From NCBI RefSeq assembly GCF_037975245.1, contig NC_092576.1, positions 25,011,611 to 25,075,610 of the forward strand: a stretch of DNA of 64,000 bases, written 5' to 3'. The position numbers and the translations under genes were made by a program. The notes under the pieces are model-generated. The model was not told the origin of the DNA. It was given only the letters and a program-made list of their open reading frames with translations, and did no database searches. The stretch comes from Apostichopus japonicus (taxonomy: Eukaryota > Echinodermata > Holothuroidea > Aspidochirotida > Stichopodidae). Shown in pieces: positions 19,299 through 63,352 of the stretch; position 1 is the stretch's first letter, and each line of letters opens with the position of its first letter.

Positions 19299-21020
19299 GT
19301 GAAAGGAAGCGGGGAAGTAGGGAACAATACAGCGGGCCACACCAACAAATGATGACAGTGACGACAATCTCTTGGCTCAAGTAATCTTCCTTAGTTCCTA
19401 GACCTTTATACACGCCAAGGTCAAAATCAACGACAACAGAAGAACAGCCTGTGTAACATAGAGCAAATAACAAACAGAATATGAGATAACATGATCATGA
19501 TTTTAATACAACAAATGTTCACAGTGTGCAGACTACAACGAAGCCCAGACTTTATGTCCCATTGCTTGAAGAAGCAATGCACAAATGCATCAAAGCTACC
19601 ACGCATGTAGCACAGAACCAATAAGAGTGAAGCAAGCACCGAAATATCGATGTAATTTGAAACTACAACTTCAAAGGAATCTACACACAACGACAAAACT
19701 TTTGAAAACAGTATTAATGCAATGAATGCTCAAGGTAATTGTAAACAGATCAGGGATTCACCAAAGTGTCCTCAACCAGAGAGAGCTGTCATCAACAGAA
19801 ACTATTAACAAAATCCTATTAAATTAATTATAAACACACATGGTACACCCTGCATAACAATATTTACATTTCATAACAAATAGTTACGTAACTCAAGGAT
19901 ACTGTAAATAGCAATAAGTAATCATATACAGCAATGGAGCTTTACCTATAGGGACCGAAAGCCATAACTCATGTTACGCACGGAAGTGATATAATAAATG
20001 GAAACGGCTGAACAAACATGATGTCATAGACACTAACTACAATCTCTTTAAACATCAGACCCATGATTTGTCTATAAAATATCAGCCTTATAAATCCTAT
20101 ATACAACTACACCTCTTAACTCGGTACATCAGCAGGTCTCACGAATATTACAAGAACTATTAACAATAAGGAACGATAGTCTAAAAAGACCTGGTGAGAC
20201 ACTGAATGTGCCTGCCAACTGCACCCTATTGAACTCATTACTCACCAGACCCAAATGGATAAGTTAACAGCGACCCCGTCAACCCAAGGACATCCTCAGT
20301 GATATCACGTCTCACAATATACCACACGACCTGGAGTCTATTAGAAAGAGTGACGTTAACACATAAAATACCTAAAACTAGCACTTAAGTATACTGCAGC
20401 AAGACCCCTAATTACCTGTTAGACACTTTAGTGTGTCACATCACCTAATTCACGTGGGACCTAGTTGTCCTATTTAAATTATTACGTATAAAGTACAATT
20501 ACACAAGACAAACAAAATAAAGATATAACGAACAATGAAGCTTAAAACAGTAAAACTAGTTGCATATAAACAATTAAGCATACTATCGTACACTTAGGTC
20601 TATTAAATTAAATCATCCATATAGGTCCACATAGCCATGGTGTGTTAGGCTGCTAGCCCACGCTGACCCCTGTAGTATTACTACGTTAGGTCATAACCTA
20701 AGTTGGGTCCATAATACCTACATAGCGTTATGCCGTAGGCTAAGCTGAATACATAGCACCTACAGTGTGTCAGACTGGCCTAGGCAGGAACCCTTTGTTC
20801 TGGGTGAGCACATGGGCCACCTCCCAAACTACAATAGCCCCCTCTTCACCCATGTGACTAGAACAACACACTAACACATACCAAATTTAGTATAAAACCT
20901 TATGAATTGATATCACCTTTTATCTAACAGCATCTTGAAACAAATTTACACTAATTAATGATAATTCCTTAAACTCATAATTGTAAAAGGAAACTCTATA
21001 CTAATTCAACATCAACTCAA
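19299..21020. other. No gene recognised
   Basis: Unique within the window. Short frames (for example 19,427-19,696, minus) have no recognisable motifs. A stretch at 20,630-20,880 is richer in GGCC/TAGG words. The left end of an LTR follows at 21,021. Confidence 0.4.
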
Positions 21021-21862
21021 TGTAAGGGAATATTAACCTTATATAATATAACCAACCAAGATTTGGACAAATTACATTCTTCAGAGAAACATTTAATCTA
21101 CATGTCCTCCCACATGCAGCCAAACATTAAATCAACTATCTCTCTGTATACATGTCAGCCACATATATCCAATCGGACCAATCCATTTCAACATTATTGG
21201 TTAGAATCAGATAAATCAAATGTATGCAATTCTGAACACAGCAATTTCACTCGAAATTGGACCTTACCTACGCTAATTCAATTGGCAACCTAACACAGTG
21301 AAGCGATAGACCCTTACTAAATGTCGATCTATAACTTACACAGAAATTGACCTTGAACAACACATCAACCCACAACTTAGTGCTAAACAATGATACATGA
21401 TTTGTTTTAATGGTCAACTCACCGGGTAACACCAGCTTTACAACAATCTTCTCGAAAGTCTCAAGTTAAATACCTTTTGCCCAGCTGAAACTGGCATGTT
21501 GTTTGGATAACAATAGAGAGTGAAGTGCCTACATGGGTGCAGGGCAGTGAGATACATACACTCAGTCGGCGCAAGGATATTACCATAAAACCTTTCTTTT
21601 CAAAATGTAATATGCCTTAATGAAGCAATACATGTAAATGTTGATAAATTACAAAAGTTCCATGATAATTTATAAAATCTAAACAACTAAAACCTAATAA
21701 CTGCTCAATTATCCATGTTAATGACATCATGAATAGTCAATATGTAAATAGTAGGCAGTATATCCTGGGCATGTGAGAGTCAAATGCAAGGCGTACTAGT
21801 GTAACCCACACACTTAGACAGATTAACGTGGCAGCATGAATTTCTACTTTACTACAAGTTTC
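21021..21862 (-). repeat. LTR of Ty3/gypsy-type element (3' LTR, minus orientation)
   Basis: In plus coordinates the repeat starts TGTAAGGGAATATTAAC at 21,021 and ends CTACTTTACTACA at 21,862, so it has TG...CA borders. Its first 170 bases recur directly at 23,351 on the other side of the integrase region. Its last 120 bases recur at about 63,226-63,352. Read on the minus strand it lies downstream of the integrase, as a 3' LTR should, with a purine-rich stretch (GCAGGGAAACT) just before it. Confidence 0.65.
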
Positions 21863-23350
21863 CCTGCGATTAAAGTCCTCGCCCCGATGAACGTTAATCT
21901 AATGCATACTGAACAGTTAGAAATACAATGAACATGAAACCAGCCATGTGATGTCTACTTGACCAAACAACTCTGGTTACACTGAGAAATACAGACTTAA
22001 AGAAAAAAGTATTAGTTCACAGAACTAATGTAAATACAATGTCACAACGATACACCAATCATAAAGCAGCTATGTCACTTATGGATCTGGAATTGAAGAC
22101 CGAGGGAGATGAGCCGGATTGCTTTGTTGACCCTTGGTAATACGTTCTGATCTACGAATACTTTGACATGGTCGATCTGCTTGGGGTATGGTTTCTTCCC
22201 TCCTTGTTTCGTGGAACAACCAGCATGGAATAAGTGCATTTTCATCAGTGTCGTCACGTCATCATTGTCTCCCCCAATTTTCAGGATCCGGGTCATCTTC
22301 CTCAGCAGCTACTCCAAGATGTCCTGACCGTCCTCACTTGGCAAGTATGGAAAGGGCTGGCGGGGATCTAGGATGATTAGACGTCGGTACTGTGCGCACT
22401 GCTCCACCTAATAATGGTCTGATATGGTATACATCTAGGCCTTCATTTATAGCAACTACAATAAAGGGCTCCCTGTTGTACTTGTCTTCCAATTTATGTC
22501 GGCCTTCATGCGCACATTTCTTAAGGAAAACTCTGCTACCAACAAGTATGTGAGGGCTCAGTTGTTGAAGGTCATGTGTCTCCTTGGTGGCTTGTAATGC
22601 AGCTTCCAACTCGGTGAACCTGAAGAGGAGCATCTGCCTGGGCTGCAACAAACTCTTCACCCCAGTCTTCTTCAGTGTTTCCCAGAATTTGTTATATTGG
22701 AGTATATGGCTCACGTCCACAGAGGAGTCGGTAAGGGGAGAACCCGGTGACGCTGTGAGGGGTACAGTTATACCGGAACACAAGCTGGTTAAGTAATTCC
22801 GGCCACTTATGTCGATGTTCAGGCTCAATGGATGTACCATTCCGCACAAAGTCCGGTTAAAACGTTCAGTTTTCCCATTCCCTTGAAGATAATAGGGGGT
22901 GGTGCGGGTTTTCTCTATACCATGCAAGTTGCAAATCTCCCGGATCAATCCACTCTTAAAATTCATGCCTCTGTCAGAATGCATCCGTAACGGTGTGCCA
23001 AAATGACCAAACCAATGATCTCGGAGGGCCTTTGCAACTACAGGGGGTGCCAGTTTAAGACAAGGTATGGCCTGCGCATTTTTAGTGAGTACATCCGTCT
23101 TGACCAGGACATCCTCGAAGCCACCTATGCCACGGTCTCGAGGAAGTCAATTGCCAACATCTCTTGTGGTATGAATGCGAGCAGATGTCGCAGGGGAGTA
23201 CGTACCTTTGGAGTTTGCTCCTTGATAGCAGCACAGGTAAAACAATCCTTCACATAGATTTGCATTTCTCTATGAAGGCCAGGCCAGAAACATTGTGCCT
23301 TAAGAATGCCAAAGGTACGGTTTACGCCTCGGTGTCCACAGTCGACACCG
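21863..23350 (-). pseudogene. Ty3/gypsy-type integrase region, frameshifted
   Basis: On the minus strand the order is that of a retrotransposon integrase. A HHCC zinc-binding segment (CGHRGVNR ... CFTC) starts near 23,340. A first catalytic Asp (AIDFLE) lies near 23,150, a second (HSDRGMNF) at 22,984-22,960, and the Glu in GNGKTERFNRTL near 22,875. A C-terminal part ends near 22,334, and a related open stretch reaches 22,075. A TAG and frameshift near 23,125 separate the zinc finger and first Asp from the rest, so the enzyme is not intact. Gag, protease, RT and RNase H are absent. The zinc finger abuts the LTR remnant at 23,351, so I infer a large internal deletion. The element is inert here. 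Confidence 0.85.
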
Positions 23351-23523
23351 AATGTAGGGAATATTAACCTTATATAATATAACCAACCAACCAAGATTTG
23401 GACAAAATACATTCTTCAGAGAAACATTTAATCTACATGTCCACCCATAGGCAGCCAAACATTAAATTAACTATCTCTATGTATACCTGCCAGGCTACCA
23501 CAAATATCCTATCCATTTCTACA
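23351..23523 (-). repeat. Truncated second LTR of the gypsy-type element
   Basis: A direct copy of the first ~170 bases of the LTR at 21,021 (TGTAGGGAATATTAACC start, GATTTGGACAAAATACATTC inside). It breaks off at about 23,523, where the next repeat (ACACTCTAAAAACAG) begins. By orientation it is what remains of the 5' LTR. Confidence 0.65.
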
Positions 23524-23935: not shown

Positions 23936-24765
23936 TGTAGTTGAAAGACTCCTCACAAGTTTTCTTCATGCAGACCTAATTTGCAACAATCAATTGAATA
24001 TGGCAATGCAAAGAGTAAACAATCCTAAAAAATATTGAAAAATTAACAAACAGTTACATTACAGAAGCCAGATGGATGACATTTTGAGAACTTGTTTTTA
24101 TTGAAAACAATAACCAGCTGAACCATGTGAATAAAATACAAACAAAACAAAACAAAACAACACACAAATATGCTTGGATGTAACAACTTCTTAGCTGTGC
24201 TCTATCAGACCTTTAAGGTGACACAATGTAAAAAACCTCTACTCTTCAAGAAGACCCTTATTCATAGAAAACTTGTAACACTCAATATCTCACATATGTA
24301 ACTATAGATCAATTGATGTATAAACAATCTATGAATCTAAACATCAATCATGATCTGATTAATCAAGGTTTACCTATACATACAGTTAATTAAGAATTAC
24401 ATTGAGTATCATATACGGTGTACATGATTACATTTAGAGACATATTTATGATATATGCCGTACATTGCAGCCAGTGCATTGTTCTTATTTCCAGTATTTG
24501 GATGTATAGTATATATCTTCACCACATATAGAGAAACATGTGTAGGTGAAATTTAGCTACATTAAACCTTACTCACTCATAAAAGATCAGTTGATTAGAT
24601 CGGGATTCCAATAAAAATTAGTAAGGAAAGTTTTGATTTGTACCAGAATGGTATGTAAAAATATGTCATATCATGAGTTTTAATTAAATGTCATTTCAAG
24701 ATGATGCTATTAGGTGTGTGAAGTTTAAAATAATAATATACAAACTTCTTGCTTACAATTATTAT
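23936..24765. other. No gene recognised
   Basis: AT-rich, with an (AAAAC)n microsatellite near 24,139-24,160. Near 24,725-24,785 the phrase CTTCTTGCTTACAATT occurs twice at the edge of the exon duplications. Confidence 0.4.
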
Positions 24766-25131
24766 ATGAGCTTCTTGCTTACAATTTCCTGTTAAGGCAC
24801 TTTTTTTTTCAGGGCCAAGAATGCTATAATACAACTTGGCATATGTGCTTCTTTGATTTCATTAATCACATTTTGAATGAACTGCCAAACAAGACTGCAT
24901 GAAGGTCGATAAGCCATGTCCAAAATGCACATTTGCCATGAAACAGAAATAGACAGCTTTTATAGAAGAGATTTGTGAGAAACTGACCTCTGTTCTAAAA
25001 TAGCAAATATCTAGGTTGGTACCAAGAGGGCTCCTTGCATACAAAAGTAGCTGCAGTATTTTTGTGGCATCAATATCCTTTGAACTTTGTAGAATATTAG
25101 CCATGAATATCTAGCTTACAATTCTTTCTAT
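24766..25131 (-). pseudogene. Extra copy 1 of SAMD3-like last exon
   Basis: Nearly identical, apart from single-base indels, to the next 366 bases, and about 80 percent similar by eye to the gene's last exon at 25,466-25,822. It still encodes ANILQSSKDIDATK and LGTNLDICYF, but the conserved FVILER core is altered and the frame shifts before the end. It is therefore a degenerate tandem duplicate lying downstream of the stop. Confidence 0.75.
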
Positions 25132-25497
25132 ATGAGCTTCTTGCTTACAATTTCCTTTTAAGGCACTTCTTTTTTTTCAGGGCCAAGAATGCTATAATAC
25201 AACTTGGCATATGTGCTTCTTTGATTTCATTAATCACATTTTGAATGAACTGCCAAACAAGACTGCATGAAGGTCGATAAGCCATGTTCCAAAATGCACA
25301 TTTGCCATGAAACAGAAATAGACAGCTTTTATAGAAGAGATTTGTGAGAAACTGACCTCTGTTCTAAAATAGCAAATATCTAGGTTGGTACCAAGAGGGC
25401 TCCTTGCATACAAAAGTAGCTGCAGTATTTTTGTGGCATCAATATCCTTTGAACTTTGTAGAATATTAGCCATGAATATCTAGCTTACAATTCTTTC
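25132..25497 (-). pseudogene. Extra copy 2 of SAMD3-like last exon
   Basis: The second member of the 366-bp tandem pair. It differs from its neighbour by one T in ATGTTCCAAAATGC, which changes the C-terminal frame, and by small T-run differences. It adjoins the real last exon. Such near identity points to a recent duplication or to an assembly artefact. Confidence 0.75.
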
Positions 25498-25822
25498 CTT
25501 TTAAGCCACTAATTACTTTTAAAGGCCAAGATGATCTAAGATCTCTAATGCAACTTGGCACATGTGCTTTTTTGATTTCATAAATCCCATTTTGAATGAA
25601 CTGCCACACAAGACAGCATGAAGGTCGGTAAGCCATGTCCAAAATGTACATTGCTTTGAAACAGAAATCGATAGCTTTCAGTAGTGATTCTTGAGGGACT
25701 GGCCTCCGTTCTAGAATAACAAATGTTTGGGTTGGTGCCAAGAGAGTTCCTTTGCGTACAACAAATGGCTGCGGCTTTTTTGTGGCATCAATATTTGGAA
25801 TTTGTAGAATATCAGCCACTTC
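25466..25822 (-). CDS. SAMD3-like gene, last exon
   Basis: Acceptor TTTTTCTCACAG. It encodes 118 residues from EVADILQIPNIDATKK to KLDIHG and a TAA. The core is QTFVILERRPVPQESLLKAI, then DFCFKAMYILDMAYR and VWQFIQNGIYEI, the conserved C-terminal block. This copy, unlike the two behind it, is fully open. Confidence 0.7.
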   Translation of the reverse strand, partial: EVADILQIPNIDATKKPQPFVVRKGTLLAPTQTFVILERRPVPQESLLKAIDFCFKAMYILDMAYRPSCCLVWQFIQNGIYEIKKAHVPSCIRDLRSSWPLKVISGLKGKNCKLDIHG

Positions 25823-31562: not shown

Positions 31563-32824
31563 ATTCACTTAGCAACAGCAACGTCATTTTGCTTCGGGCA
31601 ATGTCTAGTTTATCACAAGTACGAAGTATTTACACTTATATTGCGTCATTTGTACACTCTAACTTTGTTATATGCTCAAGTACAAAGATATTGTTAGGAT
31701 TGTTCGAGATTCCAGAAAATTATACAGTTACACTTAGGTTGCCACCATGTTGTGATATAAACATGTAATGTGTGTCCAGTGGAACAATTTCTCCTCCTGA
31801 CTAATCCCCTAAATAAATCATTCCGATTTATTACCACACCATGTGAAAACTTAGAATTGTTTTTTACTTTGATTCAAAATATTGTACCTTTACTTTTTCT
31901 GAATGACCACCCCTGATCCCCCCTCCCCCACCCCATCTCCATTCAACTCTTGTATTATCAAAAGAAGACGATAAAGGTATGAGCATAGGAATATGGAACA
32001 TTTAATTGTTGATGGGCTATTTGAATAAGAACTCTCCAAAACTATAGTAACCTGTACATACCTACAATGACAGCTCAGGTCAAACGGCGAGGCAATATTT
32101 AATACAGAATACTAAACAAATGAAACTGATTAATTATGGTGTTATGACAATAACAGAGTTATTATCCAGTTCTTACGTATATAGAAGTGGTGACTGCCAT
32201 ATAACTGACAGTATATATTCGTATTCAAGATGCAATTAGTCCATTATAATACCACAAGAAGTCTGGATGAAAATTGACAATGAAAAGGAGGTTTTAACAG
32301 GTGTGCCAATGTGAGCCGTGTTGCGTATACTGTGTTCGCCATTTAACAGCAACGTGCAGAATGGCATAACCCGACTGGTAATGGTTGCTCATGTCAGGTA
32401 AGAGAGTGGCAATTACATTCAAATAAGAAGTATAGTATAACAGAAATTCTAGTCAAAATATTTTTTTTCTAGAAAAGGTTCGGCTTGACAAGATATTCTC
32501 GTACGGTAACTCTGAACTAGTTAATTACAAGTTTATCAGCCGACAGCTGACAAGGTGTCTGTAGTCACAGCTGAGTTTGCGCATTGCTTGTGGAATTCAG
32601 ACGTTTGACTTAAACATTCTTGTCGGCGCGCAACCATCGGCCTAGACCAATGCTACATCAAGTAAGCGTACTATCACAATATGTTCAACTAAGGACGATA
32701 GCGAGGGCGATTTTATATCAAAAACAATTACAAAATGCTGGTTAACAAAATACATCGACACATTTAACAGTACATGCCACGTGTCCTGCAAACGTCCGTT
32801 CGTTTATGCAATGAGTATAGCCGG

Positions 32825-32852
32825 TATATAAAACACCCGCTGAAGTCATTCA
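32825..32852 (+). promoter_or_regulatory. TATA/Inr core promoter, unit A
   Basis: TATATAAA at 32,825 and a TCAGAC initiator-like word whose A is at 32,852, a spacing of 27 bases. Both elements and the spacing recur in unit B. The putative terminal exon lies 2.2 kb downstream on the same strand. Confidence 0.45.
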
Positions 32853-35028
32853 GACTATGCTTAGCGTTACTAGGGAACATCAGTTCAAAGTTGTTTGCAA
32901 TATGTACCAGGGTGTGTTTAGGATTTTGTCGTTTGTTTACTAACGCTTTTAGTGCCTACGCTGTCCGGGTCGGCTAGATATAGCTTACTTAGTAGGTTGC
33001 TCCCAAATGTCGTGCATTCAAGCCATGGATTTGATTGTAACCTCACGATTATTTTACATCATGCCATCGAAGTTCATTCTGGGGATGTATGACTAATGAA
33101 CTGTCACAAGTTTGTATAAAATAACTTTTCCCTGTCTTCTGTGTCCAGAGATCGAACTTCACTGCACTAACTTCCTAGGCCATAGGCTAATACTGAGCAG
33201 AAGTAGTATTTAGTAGCGGTAAAGATAGAACTTAGACTAGGGCCTAAATATGCCTATAACCACTAGTCTAACTTTTACTGACAGATACTGGATAGGCATT
33301 GGCTAGAGTTAACGTGTAAAAGTTATGATATCGTTACAAACGAGAATGGCATAGGCCTTATTTCGTCAACAAATGGCCTGACGTTACAAGTTGGGCTGAG
33401 CATAAATATATTAACTATATTTAATATATTCCAATTAATATAGTATATGCTGATAGGTTTATTCCCTCCCTGGTTTATTTTAGTAATATTAATACCATTC
33501 TGAATGTTCTGCTAGTGTGCCTACCAATGTTACAACGACAAACAATAATAGTCTGTGTTTGTTTATTTATTTTTTGTCAACCTGCAGGAGCCGTGGGAAT
33601 CTAAATTAGTAAATGCTGATAGTGACTGATAGGCTACACGCAGATGCAGAACGAACTTGTTGAGAATGCTAGCCAATCTAAATGACAATGTTTCTACCAT
33701 CGTTAAATACTAGGCCTAGCCTAGGCCCCCTAGGCCCATATAACTGTTCAAAAGAACAAGTGAAAACTTGATTTTCCAATTTCAAACTCCCAAAATGATG
33801 GAATGTTTTTTATTGCTGATTTAGGCCCTATTTATAAAGACCCATAGGTCTAAGCTAGTCATGAGTAGGCTATTCTATATGATTACTAAACTCAAAAGTT
33901 CAGGGTATAATTAAGATATGTACACTTTAATAAACCTTACTCAAGGTAACTCTCAACCAATGGTGTATGATTATACAGAACGTGTTGAATGTACTGATTT
34001 ATAATAGAAACTATTAGGTTGCGTAGCTGTCAAAATGAACGTTTTAGTCTTCAGCTGTGTTCCTGGAAGCCTATACTGCCTTGCTTATACATTTGGCGAA
34101 TTAATCCTGTGCTGTAAACTGCTGCTATTGATGTTTATTTTCAAAATGTTGGTTCAACCTTTGTTTTGATTCAGAAGTGTTTTATTTATAAAGAAAATAT
34201 ACGCTCCTCTTAGAAACAGGCCAGCACCTTCAATATTGTTCTCGAACAAGCCCAACACATACTCCCTTGCACGGATCAGGCTATAGAGAATTGGACATTT
34301 AAATTATTATCGGAATATTGTCAAACTACCCGTCCAAACACAGAAAAACAGTTGTAAAACTCTTCATTGTTGTAAATAAATCATATCTCGCGCACCCTAC
34401 GCCCATTTTCAAAAATCTTATAAATATCATTTTCTTTACAGGCTTTCTTACAAAAGTAATGGAATAAATCTCGGGATAGCGTCACAAAAGCGTTGTAAGA
34501 ACAATTTGCACAATGCAGGTACTGTGCGGGTGTGCGTGTGAGGGTATATACTTTTATCTTATATACGTGTATTGTTTATGTATTGTATATTCTAGTGGAG
34601 AGGGCATGCCCAGAGTTCTTCTTACAATCCTACTATCTCGGTCACTTTTCAACTACTTTCCACAAGCCTCAAATGATGGGATATATTAGATCATACTAAT
34701 TTAACATAAAATACACCAAAATGAAGTTTGTATTACTATTTTTAGTATGCATTCCCAAATAAGCTATTTGGGGACCTAATTTGCATATTTGAATACAATA
34801 TCAGCCAAAAATTAGTGAAAGTTATCATATATGAAATCAACAATTGTAACCCTCTTCCAATGATGTAAAGTTTCTTGTCCAAACTATCCCTCTGAATTGA
34901 TTTACTGCTTACTAAACTAGGTAACACTGCCTGTAAAAGCAATATGGAAGCTAGGTCTTACAAACGTGGGACCATACTGCCAGTAAAAAATGTGAATAAA
35001 ATATGATTAAAAATGTTAACCCCTTTAG

Positions 35029-35630: not shown

Positions 35631-36573
35631 TAGTAGTGGTAGTAGTAGTAAGTTGAGTCTCGTTTATCCGACATGCTCATTGATTAACCTCCGCCACGTA
35701 TCACGATCTTGTGGAAGGTTTATTGCTTCTTCGAAATTGTTAATGTTAACGTCCTTAAAGTGGACTTTATTTTTCCAAGCAAGTTACTCACGGGCCTTCC
35801 TACTGGTTAGCAGTATGTCTCAGTGCTTCTCTTAAAACAACCTTTGCTGGAGCGTCCTCCTGGAGTCTTGCTACATGACCGAAACATTTCAATCTTCTAT
35901 GTGCGACTATGGATGACCAAGGTGTTTGGTTGGTTTCATTGTAGAGCTCATCGTTTGATAACCAATTGTTATTCTTCCATCTAATGTTGAGAATATTAAG
36001 AAGTAGTCTCCTTTGAAAAGTGTCAATTTTGTGATTGAAAATTTCTCTGTTTTTGTGCAATTGATTTTTAGATTCCTTCCTGTCAGTTTCTCAGAAACTC
36101 GTTTTTCGATATCTTGCAGTATATGCTGACCAGGCGATGCCCAAGAGATATCAGCAGCGTATTGTTGGTCTACTGTGAAAAACAAGTTGGTGGTTGTGCT
36201 GCAATCATGATCAGCTATCTGAGATTGCAGGATAACTGCGTCGATATCATTATCATCTGATTTCAAAGAGTTAGTTAGATAAGTAATAAACAATAGTGCG
36301 CTTGCACTGTCTCCTTGTGGTGAACCAATGTTAGTGTTAAAAGGAATTCCGGGTGTGCCCTCTAGTTTGAGGGTGTAGGAGACGCTATCGATTAGCAGTG
36401 ATATCAGGTGAAGTTCGTCGTTGTCAAGAAACTTTTCTAGGTCATTAAGCAAGGATCCTCTCTGAATTGTGTCGAACGCCTTGCTCATATCTAGCATCAA
36501 TAGATTTATAATGTAATAGCTTTTTCTGCTAGCACTTTAACATAGAAGACGAGTTCAGCTCTGCAGCGTCCTG
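35631..36573 (-). mobile_element. Non-LTR retrotransposon fragment in unit A
   Basis: The minus strand encodes RT blocks LDMSKAFDTIQRGSLL, GSPQGDSASALLF and QQYAADISWAS, then a C-terminal TFQRRLLLNILNIRW ... WSSIVAHRRL ... GHVARLQEDAPAKV part, broken by deletion. The catalytic YADD box reads YAAD, so it is inactive. The 3' end carries a TAC-repeat tail next to GTTTGCAT. The same element at the same site in unit B is longer. Here the 5' part is lost by a deletion joined at the shared word GTCCTG (36,568-36,573). Confidence 0.85.
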
Positions 36574-36635: not shown

Positions 36636-38440
36636 TTTCAAAAAAGAATAAACTATAAAAAAGTACCTTCTTAATCCTTCCAGTACCAATAAAATTAAAT
36701 ATACTCTTTATAAAAATTAAAACAAAATTTATCAGATTAGCCAAGAGGATGTATCGTGAAAATACTCCAATTGATAAAATTAAAGATAATGATTTGTTAA
36801 TTACAAATAAATTTGACATGGCCGAGAAATGAAATGATTTTTTTGGCTAATATAGGTAACAACCTTGCAAGTTTTATTCCCACTTGTCACTCAAAATTTA
36901 CAGACTTTCTTACTGATAGTACCCCATCATCTCTTTCTCTCACCAACCCACTCCTCTGAAATAATCAACTTAATAATGTAATTAAAAAATGAGTTTTTGT
37001 GGTCTTGATAATATTTCTGTTCAGTTTCTCCAAGAAAATCGTTTTATTATAGCTGTCCCTCTTACATATATTTTTAATTTATCGATATTTACAGGTGTTG
37101 TTCCAACTCGTACCTAAGAAGCTAAAGTTACTCCAATCTTCAAAAGTGGTCATAAGCTATCTATTAACAATTACAGGCCCATCTCAGTTCTTCTATCTTT
37201 ATCTAAACTTTTAGAGCGTATAATATATAACCGTACTGTACATTTTTTCGTCAAGAACAACATTATTACTGATAGACAATTTGGATTTTTAGGGGGCGTT
37301 CTACAGCTATGGCAGCTTTGGATGCATCACACTATATCATTAATGGCTTCAACAATAAGGAATATTCTTTGGGTGTATTTTTAGATTTATCTAAAGCCTT
37401 TGATAGTGTCAATCATGGAATTCTTTTCAACAAATTGTATCATTATGGCATAAGAGGGGTTGCATTTAATTGGTTTCTTAATTATCTATCGGGCAAACGC
37501 CAATGTGTACATATTGATCATCATTATTCTAATGTTAGTAAAATTACATGTGGCGTACCACAAGGGTCAATTTTAGGTCCGCTGCTTTTCACTTTGTATA
37601 TAAATGATATTATAAATTGTTCACACACCTTGTATTTTACACTTTTCGCAGATGACACCAGTATAATGTATAAAAACAAAGATATAAATCATGCTGCATC
37701 TACTATAAATTTTGAATTAGCTAAAGTCTCTACTTGGTGTGAAGTTAATAAATTATCTTTGAATATATACAAAGCCCACTTTATGATTTTTCACCCAAAC
37801 CACAAAAAAAATCATGAACATAGAAATATTTATTGGCAACTCACAGTTAAAGCGTGTTGAAGTTACAAAATGTCTAGGTATATTTATTGATCCTGCTCTA
37901 AAGTGGTCTTCTCACATCTCCAAGATTAAAACTACCATCTCAAAAACTGTTGGAGTCCTTTATAAAATCAAAGACTTTGTTCCAATGTATATTCTCAAGA
38001 ACTTGTATTATACTCTCATACTACCTCATCCTAATTATTGTAATATTGTTGGGGGCAATGCATATTCTACCTACCTAAAGCAATTACTTTTATTACAAAA
38101 GAAGGGTGTTATTACACAGTCTGATTTCTTAGCACATACCCCACCACTTTTTAGCTCACTGAACTTACTTGATATTTTGTATTTACATACCATTGTGCAG
38201 TTTTAATTTTTAAGTATATTAATAATAAATTACCAGTCAATTTTAATGATTACTTTAATTTCAATTATAATATACATAACTACTACACCAGATCCTCTGG
38301 ACATTTATTTTCATTGGCCATAAATACCGATGTCTTTAAACGTTCCATCGTCTGTTATGGTGTTAAAATATGAAATAGATGAAGTCATGCATAAAGAAAT
38401 ATTAAGTACCTTAATTCATTTCATTCAAGTTGAAAAATCA
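36636..38440 (+). mobile_element. CR1/Jockey-like non-LTR retrotransposon
   Basis: The plus strand carries most of an RT domain. There are decayed N-terminal blocks from 37,020, including NNYRPISVL (stops present), and then a long open stretch at 37,309-37,860 with LGVFLDLSKAFDSVNH, GVPQGSILGPLLFTLYIND and an intact FADDTSIMY box. A frameshift near 37,820 leads to 37,814-38,206 with KCLGIFIDPALKWSSHI and the thumb region. It replaces unit sequence between the block matching 47,945 and that matching 48,150 in unit B, and is absent from B and C. The endonuclease is lost. The clade is inferred from the FADD and GVPQGSILGP contexts. Confidence 0.85.
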
Positions 38441-39077: not shown

Positions 39078-39767
39078 TGTTTTTGTTCAAAGATACAGTG
39101 CAACTCCAAGATTTTGCTACTTATTTTTTTAGATAACTTTAGTTCAATGTACGTATACTTGATATAGGTATACGACACCTATATGCACTAGTCCATATAT
39201 AGCTCCTTTTCTGGTATGGTGAATGGTAATTTCAAAAGACAATAGAACCATAGTTGAGATCATTGCTTATTCACTAAAGTGAGCGGTTTGCGTATGGCTA
39301 TGATGCATATCACATTTGCAACATATTAATCGTGGAGGCACATTTAGTGGCCTACCTATATATCCGCCACTGTTACAAGGCCCATTCTGCTCAGGATAAA
39401 GCCACAGCTGGTTTTTTCTCCGACTGACTTAGTAGGTGGACTGAGCTCTCGTGGAAAGGCCAGAAGTGAATGAATAATTGTATAAAGGAAGGGGACTGCA
39501 TTTGGGGCATTGAAGCCGGGGGATTTGGGGTCCTTCAGCAGAAAGCAATTACATCAAATGGAGCATTCTGTGGCACGTGAAGACTGTAATTTATGCCTAA
39601 ATAGGTAGGCACAACCGTAAGATTTTGCTTATAAATATTTTATGTTATGTTTCTAAAAAATAGTGGGGTCAATTCCACTAGCAGTAATGGTCCAACTCAC
39701 CCGACTGAACCATTTCCATCGATTGACAATAAGAGATAGGGAAGGGATGACCCCGGGTCCACTTTTA

Positions 39768-40214
39768 GGTAGCATACGCCCATTAAAAGCCCCGTTGACT
39801 TACACACTAAATCACAAAAGTAATATGGTCTCTAAGTTTAGATATAGGTTTTCACTAGCTAAACGCAAGTTGGCCTTTTATGGCACTATCAATTGTTTGT
39901 ATCATGACCATGTAGAATTTTTGCTATCCGAGCCGGAAGTTTTCGTCACTTGTAAACAATCCTCTTCACTCAGTGGTAAACAATTTTCCTACGCTGCTCC
40001 TGGGAGGCCTTAAAGGGGTCTAAAATTGCCTCAATTGACAAAATTTTCTCACTACATGTACTTCCATTCATGCTTTTTAACATGCAAGCCACAAAAGGCT
40101 AGATCATGATTGATAACAGGGCATAACAGATGTTCCCCTGCTGCTTATTGCCTCTTTTCTTGAAGGAGAACACGTGGGGGGCATTGATATATACGCTAAT
40201 ATGAGTATGCCACC
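39768..40214 (+). repeat. Left direct repeat of the 2.7 kb element
   Basis: 447 bp, GGTAGCATACGCCC start and GAGTATGCCACC end. Outer flank TTTTA, inner flank TTAAG. Confidence 0.8.
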
Positions 40215-41104
40215 TTAAGTGAAGGATGATTTTTTTTTAATACCAAAATGATACTTTACATAGTCGTCACAATATAAACCACAACGAACTTCTATGCAAT
40301 TATCATTTTAGGTCCATAAAGATGTATTTTCAGAGATTTCAGTATGAACGGTGCAGTGTGTTAATACATATGAGCAATACTGTGTAAGCAGTAACCAGGT
40401 CTACGCCTGCAACAACATTCCGGTCACCAATTTTGATAAGCTTGACCAATTTGGGTGCATTTATGATTCTTGCAGGTTTTATTGTTATCCCTGATCACAG
40501 TTCACTTGGTCTGGCTTGCCCTACCTGCAGAAACGTCATCCAGGGAAGGGTCAGCGGGGAGGGCTTTTTCGTCTCTGGCTCTGAAAAGTGATGAAAACTA
40601 CTTTTGTTTAACTCAGCTGATTGCTCCCAAACTGACCTACAGGACATACCCCAATGTATTTCTGAACTGTTTGGAACATGTTAAGCTGATACTGCATGTC
40701 AATCCAGTGCAACTGTTAAGTTACTGAGAATAAGAGAAGAGAATTGAAGGTGTTCTTTGCGAAAACTTGATCATTGAGATTTGTAAACCACAGCCTCACT
40801 GTAACAGTATGGACAGTAGTCAAAAGGACAGCTTACTGAAATGCTATCTAGATACACTGTCCACCTCAACAGCATATCCAGTCCATTTAAAGGTTTGTGC
40901 ATAGGTTGTTGCAATGTATTAAAGACAGTTATAAGGGAAGAGAGGTGGATAGGGGGGCATATTTCATGATAAAACATTCAAATTTGTTGCTCGGCAGAGA
41001 ACAACCACATCAAATTACCTTATTCTCCATTGGTGGTAAGCACTGGTTCCTATAGTTACTACAGTAGATCTCCCATGGAAGCATCAGGATATCTCTTTCT
41101 GCTG

Positions 41105-41383
41105 TCAGAGTTGTTTGGGATTTGTCGTTACCTCATCTAACCAGTTAAGTCCATTGATACCACACCCATTCAAAGTATATAGCTGTGAATGCTCAGGACT
41201 TAGCACATCATCTTTCTCTGAAAATTGACAAAACAACAGAAAATTCATGATAGTGAAAATATGCTCAAAAACCGCTTGATGCATATATGCAGGAGCAGAA
41301 AATGCATACCTTTGGGAATTATTTGCTAAATAAGACTCAAAACATTCTCTGTGCAAGGTATTAGCACTCAGCAGCCACTCCAC
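41105..41383 (-). other. Unidentified ORF inside the 2.7 kb element
   Basis: 92 codons (MEWLLSANTLHRECFESYL ... NGCGINGLNWLDEV). A donor-like GAG|GTAACG lies near the end. No family is recognised. It may be a captured exon or chance. Confidence 0.2.
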
Positions 41384-42016
41384 TTAGGATACAGACCTCA
41401 TAAAACATTGTGCTATAGCTGGTGTAGACTTATTCTAGGATACTAACGTAACGCCATTATGAACCTGAGGCCTAGGCCTAAGCTAACAACATATCGGGTA
41501 TTTCATGCATTGAAACTGAGTTTTTGACCTTACTAAAACACCAGGTGCTTCCAACTTTAGCAAAAATAACCTAAACTACGATTACCATGTACTTTAGGTG
41601 CTCACAGATGTCAAATTTCACTGAAATTAGTCGTTCACGTCACACACACTGCAGGCATTTGGGTCTGATTCTGAAGGATTTTGAATTTCGTGCATTTGGC
41701 ACCTATATACTTAGCAGGTTCAAGGAAGGAATCAAATTACGGAAGCTTTGGTAGGTCAAGGCTTACTGACCCAATAGTTTATTGGGGAGGAAAACTGGTA
41801 AGAAATGCTCAGAATGTTGTTCTAGTCTCATGTATAGAAACGCACATGCCTCTTTGTGGTATTTTAAGGCTGTGTCTAATTTATGCGTAAAAATCACCCA
41901 AGCTTGAAATTTTCAGACGTTTGCTTGAAAACCATTTTTACATACCATTGCAACTACTTTATTAAAAAATTGTGATTTCTAGCACTTAAAATGATAAATT
42001 TGGCATTTTTGCTTAA

Positions 42017-42461
42017 GGTAGCATAAGCCCATTAAGAGCCCCATTGACTTACACACTAAATCACAAAAGTAATGTGGTCTCTTAGTCTATAGAAGTTTTC
42101 ACTAGCTAAACGCTACCCATCACCGGATAGCTGACAAGTCAGCCTTTCATGGCACTATCAGTTTTCTGTATCATGACCATGTAGATTTTTTGCTATCCGA
42201 GCCGTCACTTGTAAACAAACCTCTTCACTCAGTGGTAAACAATTTTCCTGGGAGGCCTTAAAGGGGTTTAAAATTGCCTCAATTGACCAAATTTTCTCAC
42301 TACATGTACTTCCATTCATGCTCTTCAACATGCAAGCCACAAAAATTGAGATCATGATTGCTAACAGGTCAAAAAGATGTTCTCCTGCTGCTTTTTGGCA
42401 CTTTTCCTAGAGGAGAACATTTGGGGCGGATTGATGTTGACGCTAATAGGAGTATGCCACC
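42017..42461 (+). repeat. Right direct repeat of the 2.7 kb element
   Basis: 445 bp, GGTAGCATAAGCCC start and AGTATGCCACC end. Inner flank CTTAA, outer flank TTTTA. It has an extra ~18 bases (around CATCACCGGATAGCTG) and lacks two short segments present in the left repeat. Confidence 0.8.
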
Positions 42462-43833
42462 TTTTAGCACGCAACTGACCGCCATAACAGATCTCACACC
42501 CAGTGACCAATTTACCCTCATTGAGTATCCTGGCACCTGTCATAATGGTTTTCCTTAAGTTCAGAGCTTAGATACTGAGTATATCAACAAGCGTAAAATA
42601 GAATTACCATCTAACAAATACACAAAATGTATCAAATCATGCCAAATGGCGGTGACTTGTGAGTTGTCGCAACTCTACCTACTGTTCTGCGTTGACGTAT
42701 TTAAGTCAAACACAATACGTACAAACATTCCGTAGTTCCTGACAATTTTCATCTAAATATTGCTTGTAAATTCATTATTTTAGGCGTCAATATTTTTGTC
42801 AGAATACTTCAACAGCAAGTGAACTTTTCAAATTAGGGAAAAGAATCGAGGTGCATGCTTTTCATATACTTGCGTAAATCCACTCCTTCCAAAGGGGTGT
42901 CATTTCTAGCGGCAATACAATTAACCTTTATCATGTTTCAAAATGAATAAGCTTTGGGTCGATTTATGTTGTTGGTCTTTGGTATAACTCTTGGATTGGG
43001 TAGATATAGCTAAGAATCAGGAAAGAAAAAGCTGTTTTCATTGCCAATCTCACAGTAAAGAGAATAATAGTAAGGAGAGTTCTGACCATCCATACATTCA
43101 GCTTCAATGAATGTAGTTACGTTCCTTGTAACCACCCCTATGAGGCTGTATTGGGTGTGGTGGATGTTATTTCTGGAGTTTACCTCGAAAAAGCTGTTCG
43201 CTGAAACAATTGAAATGCTTTCTTGTAGTAATAGTTTTATTGAGAAAATTAAACTTCGTACGAGGCTTTCCATTTGATCCGAACATCAAAAAATCATCAC
43301 TTCAAAACGGTTGTGAGAATATCGGTTGTATAATTCAACAGTTGGATACTTTTAATAATTAGATATGGAAAAGGTTTCTACCTACCTACAAATCTACAGC
43401 ATAACAAACATGTCTCATAGCGACCACTTTTTAAAAAGAAACTAAAACATAGCCTATTCGCTCATATTTTCATAAATCTTTACAATGATAGGACGTAGTT
43501 GTGTCCTCTAAGATAGAAGCCAACTCTGTAACTGTAGCTCTGAAAACAAAACCAATTTTTAAGCTATGCTAAAGTCTATGAATAAGTTGAGTGTACTTAT
43601 GAGTAATCAGTAACAAGAAATCCGTAGTCAAAACCGTTAATGGTTGACTATGGTTGGCTACTGTACCGTATCATGCTTGAACAATAATCGGAATTCATAG
43701 ACATAAATAGTACTGGAAACGTAAAAGAAACCAAGACAATGGAGAAGGATTCGTTCAAATTCGTTTAACCAATGATAAAAGAAATATAAATTCACTTAGC
43801 AACGGCAACGTCATTGTGCTTAAGTGAATTGTT

Positions 43834-44064: not shown

Positions 44065-45113
44065 TCCCATAAATGAATCATTCCATTTTATTACCACACC
44101 ATGGGAAAACTTCTAATTTTTTTTTTTTTTAGTTTGATTCAAATATGGTACCTTCACCATTGCTAAATGACCACCCCATCCCCATCTCTATTCAACTCTT
44201 GTATTATCAAAAGAAGACGATACAGGTATGAGCATAGGAAAATGGAACATTTAATTGTTGATGGGCTATTTGAATAAGCACTCTCCACAACTATTTTAAC
44301 CTGTACATACCTACAATGGCAGCTCAGGTCAAACGGCGAAGCAATATTTCATAAAGAATACTAAACAAATGAAACTGATTAATTACTGTGTTCTGACAAT
44401 AACAGAGTTATTATCCAGATCCTACGTATATAGATATGGCGGCTGCCATATAACTGACAGTATATATGAGTATTCAAGATGCAATTAGTTCATTATAATA
44501 CCACAAGAAGTCTGTATGAAATGTGACAATGGAAAGGAGGTTTTAACAGGTGTGCTAATGTGAGCCGTGTTGCGTATACTGTGTTCACCATTTAACAGCA
44601 ACGTGCAGAATGGCATAACCCGACTGGTGATGGTTGCTCATGTCAGGTAAGAGAGTGGCGATTACATTCAAATTGGAAGTATAGTATAACTGCTACACTC
44701 TTAAAACGACCTTGTAATTTTTCCGACCAGAAATTCTAGTCAAAATATTTTTTTACTAGAAAAGGTTCGGCTTGACAAGATATTCACGTACGGTAACTTT
44801 GAACTAGTTAATTTACAAGTTTATCAGCCGACAGCTGACAAGGTGTCTGTAGTCACAGCTGAGTTTGCGCATTGCTTGTGGAATTCAGACGTTTGACTTA
44901 AACATTCCTGTCGGCGCGCAACCATCGGCCTAGACCAATGCTACATCAAGTAAGCGTACTATCACAAGATGTTCAACGATGGACCATAACGAGGGCGATT
45001 TTGTGTCAAAAACAATTATAAAAAGCTGGTTAACAAAATACATCGACACATTTAACAGTACATGCGACGTGTCTTGCGAACGTCCGTTCGTTTTATGAAT
45101 TGAGTATAGCCGG

Positions 45114-45141
45114 TATATATAACACCCGTTGAAGTCATTCA
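45114..45141 (+). promoter_or_regulatory. TATA/Inr core promoter, unit B
   Basis: TATATATAA at 45,114 and TCAGAC with A at 45,141, again 27 bases apart, in sequence otherwise close to that of unit A. The downstream gene body is deleted here, so any transcript would lack the full terminal exon. Confidence 0.4.
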
Positions 45142-45779
45142 GACTATGCTTAGTGTTACTAGGGAACATCAGTTCAAAGTTGTTTTGCAATATGTACCAG
45201 GGTGTGTTAAGGATTTTGTCGTTAGTTTACTAACGCTCTTAGAGCCTACGCTGTCCGGGTCGGCTAGATATAGCTAGGCCTAGTAGGGTGCTCCCAAATG
45301 TCGTGCATTGAATCCATGGATTTGATTGTAACCTCACGATTACTTTACATCATGCCATTGAAGTTCATTCTAGGGATATATGACTAATAAACTGTCACGA
45401 GTCTTCTGTTTCCAATATAGAACTTCACTGTACTAACTTCCTAGGCCATAGGCTAGTACTGAGTAAAAGTAGTATTTAGTAACGGTAAGATATTACTTAG
45501 ACTAGGGCCTAAATATGCCTATAACCACTAGTCTAACTTTTACTTACAGTTACTGAATAGGCATTGGCTAGAATTAACGTGTAAAAGTTATGATGTCGTT
45601 ACAAACGAGAATGTTATAGGCCTCATTTCTTCAACAAACGGCCTAACGTTACTAGTTAGGCTCAGCATATATAAGTAAATATTCTAATTTATATAGTATA
45701 TGCTGATAGTGAGTGTTGGTTTGCCAGGTCTGGAGCAGCCTCCCTGATTGTTTTAACTTCCATTCTGAATATTATGAAG

Positions 45780-46216: not shown

Positions 46217-47735
46217 TTACATAGAGGTAGTAAGTTGAGTCTCGTCTATCCGACATGCTCAGTGATTAACCTCCGCCACGTATCACGATCTTGTGGAAGG
46301 TTTCTTGCTTCTTCGAAATTTTTAATGTTTTTAAATTGCGACTTAATTTTTCCAGACAAGGTAGTCACGGGCCTTCCTACTGGTTAAGCAGTATGTCTCA
46401 GTGCTTCTCTAAGAGTAACCTTTGCTGGAGCGTCCTCCTGGAGTCTTGCTACATGACCAAAAAATCTCAATCTTCCATGTGCGACTATGGATGACCAAGG
46501 TGTTTGGTTGGTTTCATTGTATAGTTCATCGTTTGATAACCAATTGCTATTGGTACATCTAATGTTGAGGATATTACGAAGTAATCTCCTTTGAAAAGTG
46601 TCAATTTTTCGATCAAGATCCTTTGCTGTGCCCCAGAGTTCGCAATTGTACAACAAAATACCCTTTAATAAAGCCTCACAAATCCTAAGCTTAATGTTTC
46701 GGCATATTTTTTTACTTTTGAAATACTTGACAGTGTGTTGAAAGCACCGTTGGTTATTTCCTCGGTTAATTTCTTCTTCGGTCCCCAGCAAGCTTCAAAC
46801 ATTTTTACATTTCTTTCAACTTTCGTTTCCTTTTCTTGTGATTGAAAATTTCTCAGTTTTTGTGAAACTGATTTTCACATTCCTTCCTGTCAATTTCACA
46901 GAAACTTGTTTTTCGATATCTTACAGTATATACTGACCAGTTGATGCCTAAGAGATATCATCAGCCTATTGTTGGTCTACTGTGAAAAAGAGAGTTGCTG
47001 TAAACATGATCAGGTAACTGAGATGTTAGGATAACTGCATCGATATCATAATCATCTGATTTCAAAGAGTTGGCTAGATAAGGTATAAACAATAGTGCGC
47101 TTGCACTATCTCCTTGTGGTGAACCAATGCTAGTGTTACAAGGAAGTCCGAGTTTGCCCTCTAGTTTGACGGTGTAGGAGACGTTATCGATTAACATTGA
47201 TATCAGGTGAAGTCCGTCGATGTCAAGAACTTTTTCTGGGTCATTAAGCAATGATCCTCTTTGAATTGAGTCGAACGCCTTGCTCCTATCTAGCATCAAT
47301 AAATTTATAGTGAAACCTACGGATGTTATAGCTTTCTCTGCTATCACTTTAAAAGCGAAGACGAGTTCAGTTGTGCAACGTCCTGAAGTGTAGGCTGTAT
47401 GGGTAATGGGGAGGATATGCTCATCAATTAACGAACGAATCCTCCTGGCCACACAAATTGCAAGAATTTACCTTAGTGTTGATAATAAAATGACTGGTCT
47501 GAAGTTTTCTGGTGGACCTTTAGTCTTTCCCGGTTTTTGAATAGGATTTAAGATTCCTCGTTTAATTTCAACTGGGAAATCTCCTGATTCGGCTATACTA
47601 TTTAAGATATTTGCCATGGGTTTGCGGGTGCATGGGGCATATTTGAGATGTTCGGCTGTGATATTGTCAAAACCTGAGGTTCTATAATTTTTGAAGGATG
47701 AGACTGCTTGTTTAATTTCATATTCATCTTTGCAT
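46217..47735 (-). mobile_element. Non-LTR retrotransposon in unit B
   Basis: Reading on the minus strand from 47,746: FKNYRTSGFDNITAEHLKYA and PVEIKRGILNPIQKPGKT (RT N-terminus), then LDRSKAFDSIQRGSLL and GSPQGDSASALLF, then an ADDI box preceded by a stop codon, then the RRLLRNILNIRC ... GHVARLQEDAPAKV C-terminus. Several stops and frameshifts are present. It is flanked by TTTACAT (left) and TTTGCAT (right), a likely 7-bp target duplication. Copies 0 and C hold the empty site. Confidence 0.85.
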
Positions 47736-48856: not shown

Positions 48857-51800
48857 AGTTTTGTTCAAACATACAATGCAAATTGACTGTAATGTTTAGA
48901 TTACTTTAGTTGTCTGCACGTATACTTGATATAGGTATACGACACCCATATGCACTAGTACATATATAGCTCGTTTCTGGTATGGTTGAATGGTAATTTT
49001 AAAAGGCAAAAGAACCATAGTGACCATTGCTTATTCACTGAAGTAAGTGGTTTGCGTAAAGCTATATGCATATTATATTTGCAGCTTATTAATCGGGGAG
49101 ACACATTTAATGTTCTACCTATATATCCGCCATTGTTGCAAGGCCCATTCTGCTCAGGAGAAAGCCACAGTCGCGTGCACAGGATTTCGAAGGTAGCAAT
49201 TTCTTTCTCCGACTGACTTAGTAAGGGGACTGAGCTCTCGTGGAAAGACCAGAAGTGAATGAAGAATTGTATAAAGAAAGGGGACTGCACTGGGGTCATT
49301 GAAGCCGAGGATTCGGGGTCTTCCAGAAGAAAACAATGACGTCAAATTGAGCATTCTGTGGCACGTGTAGACTATCAGTTATGTTTAAATAGGTTGGCAC
49401 AACCGTAAGATTTTGCTAATACATACTTTATGATATGTTAAAAAATGGGGACGATTCCACTCACAGTAGTGGTCCAACTCTGCCCAGCTAAATACACAAC
49501 TCACCTGACTGAACAATTTTCCATCAACTGACGATCGGAGGTAGGGAGGGGATGGCCCCGGGTCCACTTTTCTCACGCCACTGACCGCCATGAACGATCT
49601 CCTACCCAGTGACCAATTTACCCTCATTTGAATATTCTTGCACCGGAGCTTTATATACTGACTATATCAACAAGCGTAGAAGAGAATTCCCACATTTAAC
49701 ACATACACACAATGTATCAAATGATGCAAGGTGGCGGTGAATTGTGATTTGTCGCCGTTCTAGCTACTGTTCTGCGTTGACGTATCTAAGTCAAAAACAA
49801 TACGTACAAACATTCCGTCATTCCTGACGATTTTCTTCTAAATTATGCTGGTAAATTCAATATTTTAGGCGACAATATTTTTTTCAGAATATTTCAACAA
49901 CAAGTGAACTCTTCAAATTAGGAAAAAGAAACGAGGTTTGGCTGGATTAATGCTGTTGGTCTTTGGTATAACTCTTTTATTAGGTAAATGGCTAAAACTC
50001 AGGAAAGAAAAACCTATATATTAATGAGCCAGACACTAAACAACAAATGTATTTACGTTCCTTGTAACCACCTCCATGAGGCTGTATATATGTGCAGTGG
50101 ATGTTATTGCTGGGATTTACCTCGAAAAAGCTGTTCGCTGAAACAATTGAAATGCTTTCTTGTAGTAATAATTTGATTGAGGAAATTACACTTTTTAGGA
50201 GGCTTTCCATTTGATCCAAACATCCACATATCATCACTTCAAAACGGTTGAGTGAATATCGGTTATATAATTCAGCAGTTGGATACTTTGGATAATTTCT
50301 TAATATCTTCGACGATGTTTATTCATGAATTATATGCAACAAAAAATGTTAAATGTCATTGGTTATGTCTAATAAGATATGGAAAAGATTTTTAACCTAC
50401 CGAAAAACCTACGAAAAAAGTTTCAGAGCGACCATTTTTAACAAAGAAACTAAATAATATTTGCTAACATTTTAATAAATCTTTACAATGAAAGGACGAA
50501 GTCGTGTGCTCTAAAATATGGACCAAAGTCTGTAAACTGTAGCTCTAAAAAGCAAAACCAATTTTGTGCAAAACTCTACGAAAGATGATTTGCGTGTAAT
50601 TTTGCAAGCCACGCCCAGGTCTATGGATAAGCGGAGTGTACATATGAGTAATCAGTAACAAGAAATCCGTAGTCATAACCGTGAACGTTTTACTATGATT
50701 GGCTACTGAACTGTATCATGTTTGAACAATAATCGGTATTCATAGACATACGTAGTTCTGAGAACGTGAAAGAAACCAACACAATGGAGAAGGATTTGCT
50801 CGGAATCGCTTTGCTTATACTAAAAGATGTATGCATTAAATTAGCAACGCCAAAGCTTTTCTGTTTCGGACAACGCATTGCATATTACGTGTAAGCAGTT
50901 TATTTATAATAATATTGCGTCAGTTTTTCACAGTAACTTTGCTACACGCTAAAGGGTATTGTTTGAATTGTTCGAGATTCTAGAATATTATACAGTTATG
51001 GAAACGACTAAATACACAATTAGGTTGCCACTACTGCATGTTGTAAAGCATATACAAACTTATGTTGTGTGTGTCCACTCAAACGTGGAACAATTCCTTC
51101 TCCTGACTAATCCACTAAATGAATCATTCCGATTTATTACCACACCATGTGAAAACTTCTGATTGTTTCATACTATGATTCAAAATATTGTACCCTCACC
51201 ATTTCTTATGATAACCCATTCCCTCCCCTCCACAATCGTCAACACTTGTATTATCAAAAGAAGACAATACAGCATGGCATTGGCATATGGAACATTTAAT
51301 TGTTGATGGGAAATTTGAATAACCGTTCTCCACAACTATTGTAACCTGTAAATACCTACAATGACAGTTCAGGCAAAACAGCGAAGCAATATTTAATACA
51401 GAAACCAACAAAATGAAACTGATTAATCATGGTGTTCTGTCAACAAAAGAGTTATTATCCAGTTCCTACGTATATAGAAATGGCGGATGCCATGTTACTG
51501 ACAGAATATATTCGTATTAAAGATGCAATTAGTCCATAATATTACCACAAGAAATCTGTTTGAAATGTGACAATGGAATAGAGGTTTTAACAGGTGTATA
51601 AAGACCCATAGGTCTAAGCTAGTCATGCGTAGGCTTTTCTGGATGTTTACTAAAGTCAAAAGTTCAGGGTATATATAATTTAGATTTTTTTTTTTTTTTG
51701 TATCTGGCTGCGTATTCCCAGGCATGAAATAGCCATAGAAAAACAAATAAGCCTAATTAAAAACTTCATCTTGCTCGATGAAAATATCTAATTCACTGTA

Positions 51801-54832: not shown

Positions 54833-56099
54833 TTTTGCTGAAACCAGCAGTGCAACTCTAATGTTTTGCTACTGTTATGTTTAAATTACCCTAGTTGTCT
54901 GTACGTATACTTGATATAGGTATACGACACCCATATGCACTAGTCCTTAGATAGCTCGTTTCTGGTTTGGTTGAATGGTAATTTCAAAAGACAAAAGAAC
55001 CATAGTTGAGATCATTGCTTATTCACTGAAGTAAGTGGTTTGCGTATAGCTATATGCATATCACATTTGCAGCATATTAATGGGGGAGACACACTTAGTG
55101 GTCTACCTATCTATCTGCCAATGTTACAAGGCACATTCTGCTTAGTTGAACCCACAGTTGCGTGCACAGGATTCGAAGGTGGAGGTAGCAAATTCCAATT
55201 TTTCTCCGACAGACTTACTTAGGAGACTAAACTCTTGTGGAAGGGCCAGATGCAAATGAGGAATTTTCTAAATGAGGTGGACTGCACTAGGGTCATTGTA
55301 GCCGGGAGATTTGGGGTCCTCCCGATGAAAACAATGACGTCGAAGGGAGCATTCTGTGGCACGTGTAGACTGTAATTTATGTCTAAATAGGTAGGCACAA
55401 CCGTAAGATTTTGCTAATAAATACTGTATGTTATGTTTCTAAAAAGAGTGAGGTCTATTGTACTCGCAGTAGTGGTCCAACTCTTCCCAGCTGAATACAA
55501 AATCACCCGACTGAACCATTTTCCATCGACTGACGATCGGAGATAGGGAGAGGGTGGCCCCGGATCCACTTTTCGCACGCCATTGACCGCCATGAACGAT
55601 CTCCTACCCATTGACCAATTTACCCTCATTTGAGTATCCTGGCACCTGTCATAATGGTTTTCCTTAAGTTCAGAGCTTAGATACTGACTATATCAACAAG
55701 CGTAAAATAGAATTACCATCTAACAAATACACAAAATGTATCAAATCATGCCAAATGGCGGTGGCTTGTGAGTTGTCGCAAATCTAACTACTGTTCTGTG
55801 TTGACGAATCTAGGTCAAACACAATACGTACAAACATTCCGTCATTCCTGACGATTTTTTTTATCTTAGGAATGCTTGTAAATTCTATATTTTAAGCGTC
55901 AATATGTTTTTTTTTTTAGAATTCTTCAACAAGTGAAGTCCTCAAAGTAATAAATGAAAAAGAGGTGCGTGTTTTTCATATACGCGTAAATCCACTCCTT
56001 CGAAAGGGGTGCTATTCTAACAGCAGAACAGTTACCCTTTGCAATTTCCCAAAACAGCTAACCATTTCAAGAAATGTTTTCAAATGATAGTTTTGGGGA

Positions 56100-62320: not shown

Positions 62321-62636
62321 ATGGTGAACGGCAGCGCAGTTGGTGGATTGATGAACTGCGGCGCAGTCGGCGGAATGGTGAACTGCGGCGCAGTCGGCGG
62401 AATGGTGAACAGCGGCGCAGTCGGCGGAATGGTGAACGGCGGCGCAGTTGGCGGATTGGTGAACTGCGGCGCAGTCGGCGGAATGGTGAACAGCGGCGCA
62501 GTCGGCGGATTGGTGAACAGCGGCGCAGTTGGCGGATTGATGAACGGCGGCGCAGTTGGCGGATTGGTAAACTGCGGCGCAGTCGGCGGAATGGTGAACG
62601 GCGGCGCAGTTGGCGGATTGGTGAACTGCGGCGCAG
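62321..62636 (+). repeat. 27-bp GC-rich minisatellite, about 11.7 copies
   Basis: Each unit contains GGCGGAATGGTGAACTGCGG and varies at a few sites only. At 27 bases it equals nine codons, so frames stay open: GAVGGMVNC-type repeats (62,321-62,653) and RRSRRNGEL-type repeats (62,311-62,640) on the plus strand, and all three minus frames. It is far richer in GC and CpG than its surroundings. I see no exon context and do not call it a gene. Confidence 0.9.
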
Positions 62637-63225: not shown

Positions 63226-63352
63226 GATATTCAATAAGTAAATAGTTGCTTCTTGAGGCAGTACGTCCTGGACATGTGAGAGTCACATGCAAGGCCAACT
63301 AGTGTAACCCACACTTAGACATTAAAATGGCACCATGAATTTCTACTTTACT
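63226..63352. repeat. LTR end fragment of the gypsy-type family
   Basis: Matches 21,735-21,862 (GGACATGTGAGAGTCACATG, CACCATGAATTTCTACTTTA), ending CTACA directly against unit E. No internal sequence adjoins it. Confidence 0.7.

Follow-up and report, generated by a model that had tools for sequence, protein, structure and literature searches.

DNA transposons with paired ends have been described within the Kolobok superfamily under the name KolobokP, with consensus sequences for 228 families (Kojima & Bao 2022, PMC9587614). According to that description, full units are organized as LTDR-INT-LTDR, an internal region (INT) lying between two long terminal direct repeats (LTDRs) of about 450 or 660 bp, and each LTDR possesses perfect or imperfect inverted ends of 11-18 bp and the terminal bases 5'-RR and YY-3'. 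Solo LTDRs and multimers are also reported there, and the target site duplicated around the former is 3-4 or 4-5 bp long. A strong target preference is said to be absent from KolobokP, whereas the Kolobok superfamily at large produces TTAA-specific duplications (PMC9587614). Non-autonomous families from oyster range from 1,738 to 3,261 bp, two Corbicula monomers measure 2,637 and 2,453 bp, and the INT of KolobokP-1_MeMe starts and ends with TATA (PMC9587614). In the literature searched, no other eukaryotic DNA-transposon lineage with a paired-end layout was met; Teratorn, likewise called composite, is a transposon-herpesvirus fusion.

Two further systems share part of this organization. The KolobokP report discusses the composite transposons of bacteria along with IS26 translocatable units, in both of which the direct repeats are mobile elements and a circle with one repeat can enter a resident copy; they differ from the element discussed below in being bacterial and in carrying the transposase inside the repeats (PMC9587614). 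The CMITE and CMITE-IN elements of corals are small inverted-end elements with TTAA duplications, found in tandem arrays, and they offer a likeness in that inverted-end elements take part in the assembly of a new element (PMC2872659). However, they are about 100 bp long with piggyBac-type CCYT ends, and direct terminal repeats of ~450 bp are not described in the parts of that report that were consulted (PMC2872659).

The locus presented here belongs to a window of 64 kb, the whole stretch of Apostichopus japonicus DNA that was analysed. Two LTDRs of the same orientation were delimited, the left one at 39768..40214 (447 bp, GGTAGC...GCCACC, with ~18-bp imperfect inverted ends; + strand, an arbitrary choice) and the right one at 42017..42461 (445 bp, +). 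Between them lies an INT of 1,802 bp (40215..42016), and the total unit extends over 2,694 bp, from 39768 to 42461. The sequence TTTTA flanks the unit on its left (39763..39767) and right (42462..42466) sides, an outer duplication supported by the sequence and by empty sites in two duplicate segments, while TTAA, as read from the sequence, stands at both the start (40215..40218) and the end (42013..42016) of INT. The double flank pairs to which the preliminary description drew attention are real. They are unlikely to be due to chance, since flush matches of five and four bases arose at rates of 0.0014 and 0.0052, respectively, at random places of the window (200,000 draws). It is worth noting that the boundaries can slide, and for this reason the duplication lengths are ambiguous, from 3 to 7 bases outside and from 2 to 6 inside. 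The longest common strings on the sliding boundary were CTTTTAG for the outer pair and CTTAAG for the inner one. Inspection by hand showed that all four repeat ends read AGGT; if the element is taken to include this A, only TTT remains flush on the outer side and only TA on the inner side. Under the TTTTA/TTAA boundary, the repeat termini are GG...CC in both copies, and the alternative boundary turns them into AG...CT.

Each repeat displays inverted ends of its own. When the first 18 bases were compared with the final 18 after reverse complementation, 14 of the 18 positions matched in either copy, a level reached by only one of 200,000 random window pairs for the first repeat and by four of 200,000 for the second. 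This result bears out the earlier proposal that the repeats are themselves inverted-end elements, and each LTDR can be regarded as a mobile-element-like unit that might, in principle, undergo excision as a small transposon. The repeat ends read GGTAGC/GGTGGC and, together with the TTTTA outer duplication, they led to the rejection of a piggyBac-type MITE, characterized by the CCYT motif and TTAA duplications.

A non-coding LTR retrotransposon (TRIM or LARD) whose LTRs measure 446 bp would also show direct repeats and a 5-bp outer duplication. However, the termini are GG..CC instead of TG..CA, 18-bp inverted ends are present within each repeat, and a plain LTR insertion leaves the inner TTAA pair unexplained, a point on which the preliminary description was right. 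The inner edges of the repeats read TTAAGTGAAGG and, in reverse, TTAAGCAAAAATG. Examination of these edges by eye, in both orientations, revealed neither a TGG-type primer site at one of them nor a purine tract at the other, two marks of an ordinary LTR element. An LTR element was rejected on the basis of its termini, the inverted ends and the missing primer site and purine tract (by eye), and it can be considered extremely improbable.

Comparison with the published account of KolobokP (PMC9587614) revealed several likenesses. The LTDRs, which measure 447 and 445 bp and enclose 1,802 bp, are close to the ~450 bp published, their ~18-bp imperfect inverted ends correspond to the 11-18 bp reported, and the GG..CC (or AG..CT) termini fit the RR..YY pattern. 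The outer duplication, whether it is counted as 3, 4 or 5 bp, agrees with the 3-5 bp published for solo LTDRs, and the 2,694 bp of the unit fall within the range of the oyster non-autonomous families and near the Corbicula monomers. Finally, INT is bounded by a 4-base direct pair, TTAA in this case and TATA in KolobokP-1_MeMe. The element differs from Kolobok members outside KolobokP, for which a TTAA-specific 4-bp duplication is reported (PMC9587614): the outer duplication is TTTTA (or TTT/TTTT), and TTAA is found only inside. This non-TTAA outer duplication was weighed against the KolobokP reading, with which it agrees only if KolobokP, as stated in that report, shows no strong target preference. 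Since anatomy, terminal bases, size, the 4-base pair of INT, its non-coding nature and two empty sites all agree, the element is very probably a non-autonomous KolobokP monomer, LTDR-INT-LTDR, an assignment made by anatomy and through comparison with published KolobokP descriptions only.

No stop-to-stop frame longer than 92 residues was found in INT, and Pfam searches (E<=1) gave no match for its two longest frames or for a frame spanning the left flank and the left LTDR. When the six frames of INT were searched with stops replaced by X, the only match was at chance level (E 0.13, 12.8 bits for a cut-off of 27). The element differs from the published KolobokP in that no trace of a transposase or His-Me nuclease was found with Pfam, and this counts against the KolobokP reading. 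However, the missing coding match bars the autonomous class only, because it is expected of non-autonomous members. A second point against a family reading is that a single unit is known in the window: no second INT copy was detected there at E 1e-3, and no further LTDR copy beyond the pair. A local origin of INT was rejected, no second copy being present in the window (E 1e-3). INT was also considered as an inverted-end element in its own right and discarded, its ends (one of which, reversed, is GCAAAAATG...) having no common inverted repeat. A 14-base, 93% inverted pair (40300-40313 and 41984-41997) lies near the ends of INT and not at them, and was taken as chance. In our opinion, INT is probably the family's own internal region and not foreign passenger DNA. 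A search with a 26-base repeat pattern gave 0 matches in prokaryotic contigs and 0 in viral contigs, which is unsurprising for eukaryotic DNA. With the gathering thresholds of Rfam, 0 matches were obtained, and ARAGORN yielded 0 tRNAs.

The same anatomy could be produced by a macrotransposon, in which two short inverted-end elements of another superfamily, by chance directly oriented and each in a TTAA site on one side of 1.8 kb of ordinary DNA, moved once as a whole. Macrotransposons are known from the Ac/Ds system of maize, where two linked, direct-oriented elements move as one unit, with hAT ends and 8-bp duplications. These are opportunistic pairs and not a lineage, which distinguishes them from KolobokP. 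An interior with neither a second copy in the window nor a coding match would be compatible with such an origin. However, two independent insertions with identical inner flanks would be needed, and the repeat length, the end bases and the pattern at the inner boundary are already those of an established lineage, so that a macrotransposon appears highly unlikely.

Other repeated and coding features are spread over the window. Reverse-transcriptase fragments at 35907-36536 and 37276-37860 match Pfam RVT_1, and a fragment at 46961-47467 resembles the 35907-36536 stretch and has no Pfam match of its own. Broken frames resembling a retrotransposon integrase occupy 22334-23415 on the minus strand, with a weak rve match below the Pfam cut-off, and near them is a direct repeat of 156-163 bp (21019-21174 and 23351-23513, 88% alike), the second copy of which overlaps the second frame. 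Tandem repeats were found at 24763-25818 (369-bp unit, 2.9 copies, 88% matching) and at 62321-62636, where a 27-bp unit in about 12 copies is open in several frames. Self-comparison also disclosed that large parts of the window, within 16412-19303, 31446-59278 and 63227-64000, form an array in which several duplicate segments have diverged, with pieces that are 73-95% identical. This array is a source of natural empty sites for several insertions. Two of the duplicates contain a stretch of 464/467 bp (32498-32961 and 44785-45251) that is absent from a third near 57800; it was considered as a solitary LTDR owing to its close length and dropped, no matching inverted ends being visible by eye.

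The 2,694-bp unit plus one duplication is cleanly absent at two sister loci of this array, at ~49.57 kb and ~55.57 kb. The empty target site TTTT lies at 49568..49571 in duplicate segment A, which reads CCACTTTTCTCACGC, and at 55570..55573 in duplicate segment B, which reads CCACTTTTCGCACGC, whereas the occupied locus reads CCACTTTTA-[element]-TTTTAGCACGC. In a third duplicate, near 18.68 kb, the whole surrounding stretch is missing, and this segment is silent on the insertion site. Both empty sites have C as their fifth base (TTTTC), where the occupied locus has A on each flank of the element. A C-to-A change in the target may have preceded insertion, or else the duplication may consist of TTT/TTTT with one A belonging to the element. 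The TTTTC of the empty sites, where TTTTA flanks the element, was counted as a point against the KolobokP reading preferred here.

Divergence between the two LTDRs was estimated from a global alignment of 469 columns, 381 of them identical and 46 containing gaps, which were distributed over blocks of 22, 11, 10, 2 and 1 bases. The 42 substitutions among the 423 compared positions were made of 21 transitions and 21 transversions (raw divergence 0.099, K2P 0.107). The surrounding duplicate segments were more diverged, at 0.150, a figure that pools two comparisons having one segment in common (Fisher p 0.004), and the host distance among the three segments was 0.156-0.186 K2P, with left and right flanks taken separately. 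Because the LTDR pair stands at 0.099 and the duplicate segments at 0.150, the data fit an insertion that would have occurred after the duplications. The preliminary description had read the indels between the repeats as fitting two separate copies; this argument is weak, since with an LTDR divergence lower than that of the host segments, the differences may postdate insertion.

The LTDR differences were not evenly distributed. Before alignment column 310, 18 of 265 compared bases differed, and after it 24 of 158; among the 423 compared positions, the best change point was position 306 (permutation p 0.0035). Substitutions concentrate in the last third of the alignment, and the larger gaps in its first two thirds. 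Such unevenness is not predicted by a simple clock running since one insertion, and it counts against whole-unit insertion of a KolobokP element. It would fit non-identical copies that were partly homogenised, as could be the case if the element had been assembled at the locus in two steps: a solitary LTDR would have settled at TTTTA, and a circle made of one TTAA-flanked LTDR and the 1.8 kb would then have recombined into it. The latter model, in which a circle enters a resident LTDR, is published for KolobokP (Fig. 5b1 of PMC9587614) and yields the exact layout, with outer and inner pairs that differ. The preliminary description had arrived at it from the flanks, and its account of the layout stands; the event itself is not needed at this locus, as transposition of a whole KolobokP unit leads to an identical end product. 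For the same reason, a single locus cannot tell whole-unit transposition from two-step assembly. Moreover, the divergence over the last 158 compared LTDR bases (0.152) does not exceed that of the host duplicates (0.150), so that these differences need not predate the array. We consider two-step assembly improbable here.

Under the preferred reading, that of a non-autonomous KolobokP monomer, the transposase class can be inferred as KolobokP: an enzyme encoded elsewhere in the genome would act in trans on the outermost ends of the LTDR pair. The outer ends of the left and right LTDRs would be joined to the target TTTT(A), and insertion of the whole 2.7 kb would create the outer duplication. The complete unit could have moved in one piece into TTTT(A/C). 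The inner TTAA pair would not reflect a second target event at the locus; we infer that it is the inherited INT boundary of the family, possibly the fossil of an LTDR that once lay within a circular or tandem INT and was bounded there by a TTAA duplication of its own. An LTDR placed between copies of its own INT would indeed resemble an insertion with a TTAA duplication. A more general proposal can be formulated, which we consider rather unlikely: the inner 4-base pair could be a lineage-wide mark of KolobokP, left by insertion of an LTDR into its own circular or tandem INT, with units being rebuilt by circles that enter solitary LTDRs. If this were true, the TTTTA and TTAA (CTTAAG) pairs, the uneven LTDR divergence and the two empty sites would make up a rebuilding event that can be read base by base.

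By its anatomy, the element is best filed as a further example of the known KolobokP kind, real and well bounded, and as more than an LTR element. At this locus, one insertion can be set against two empty sites that have been preserved. The inference drawn earlier from the bare sequence was a sound reading of the anatomy of a real and little-known structure. These observations suggest that the KolobokP lineage could be recognized in raw sequence by a signature of double flank pairs.
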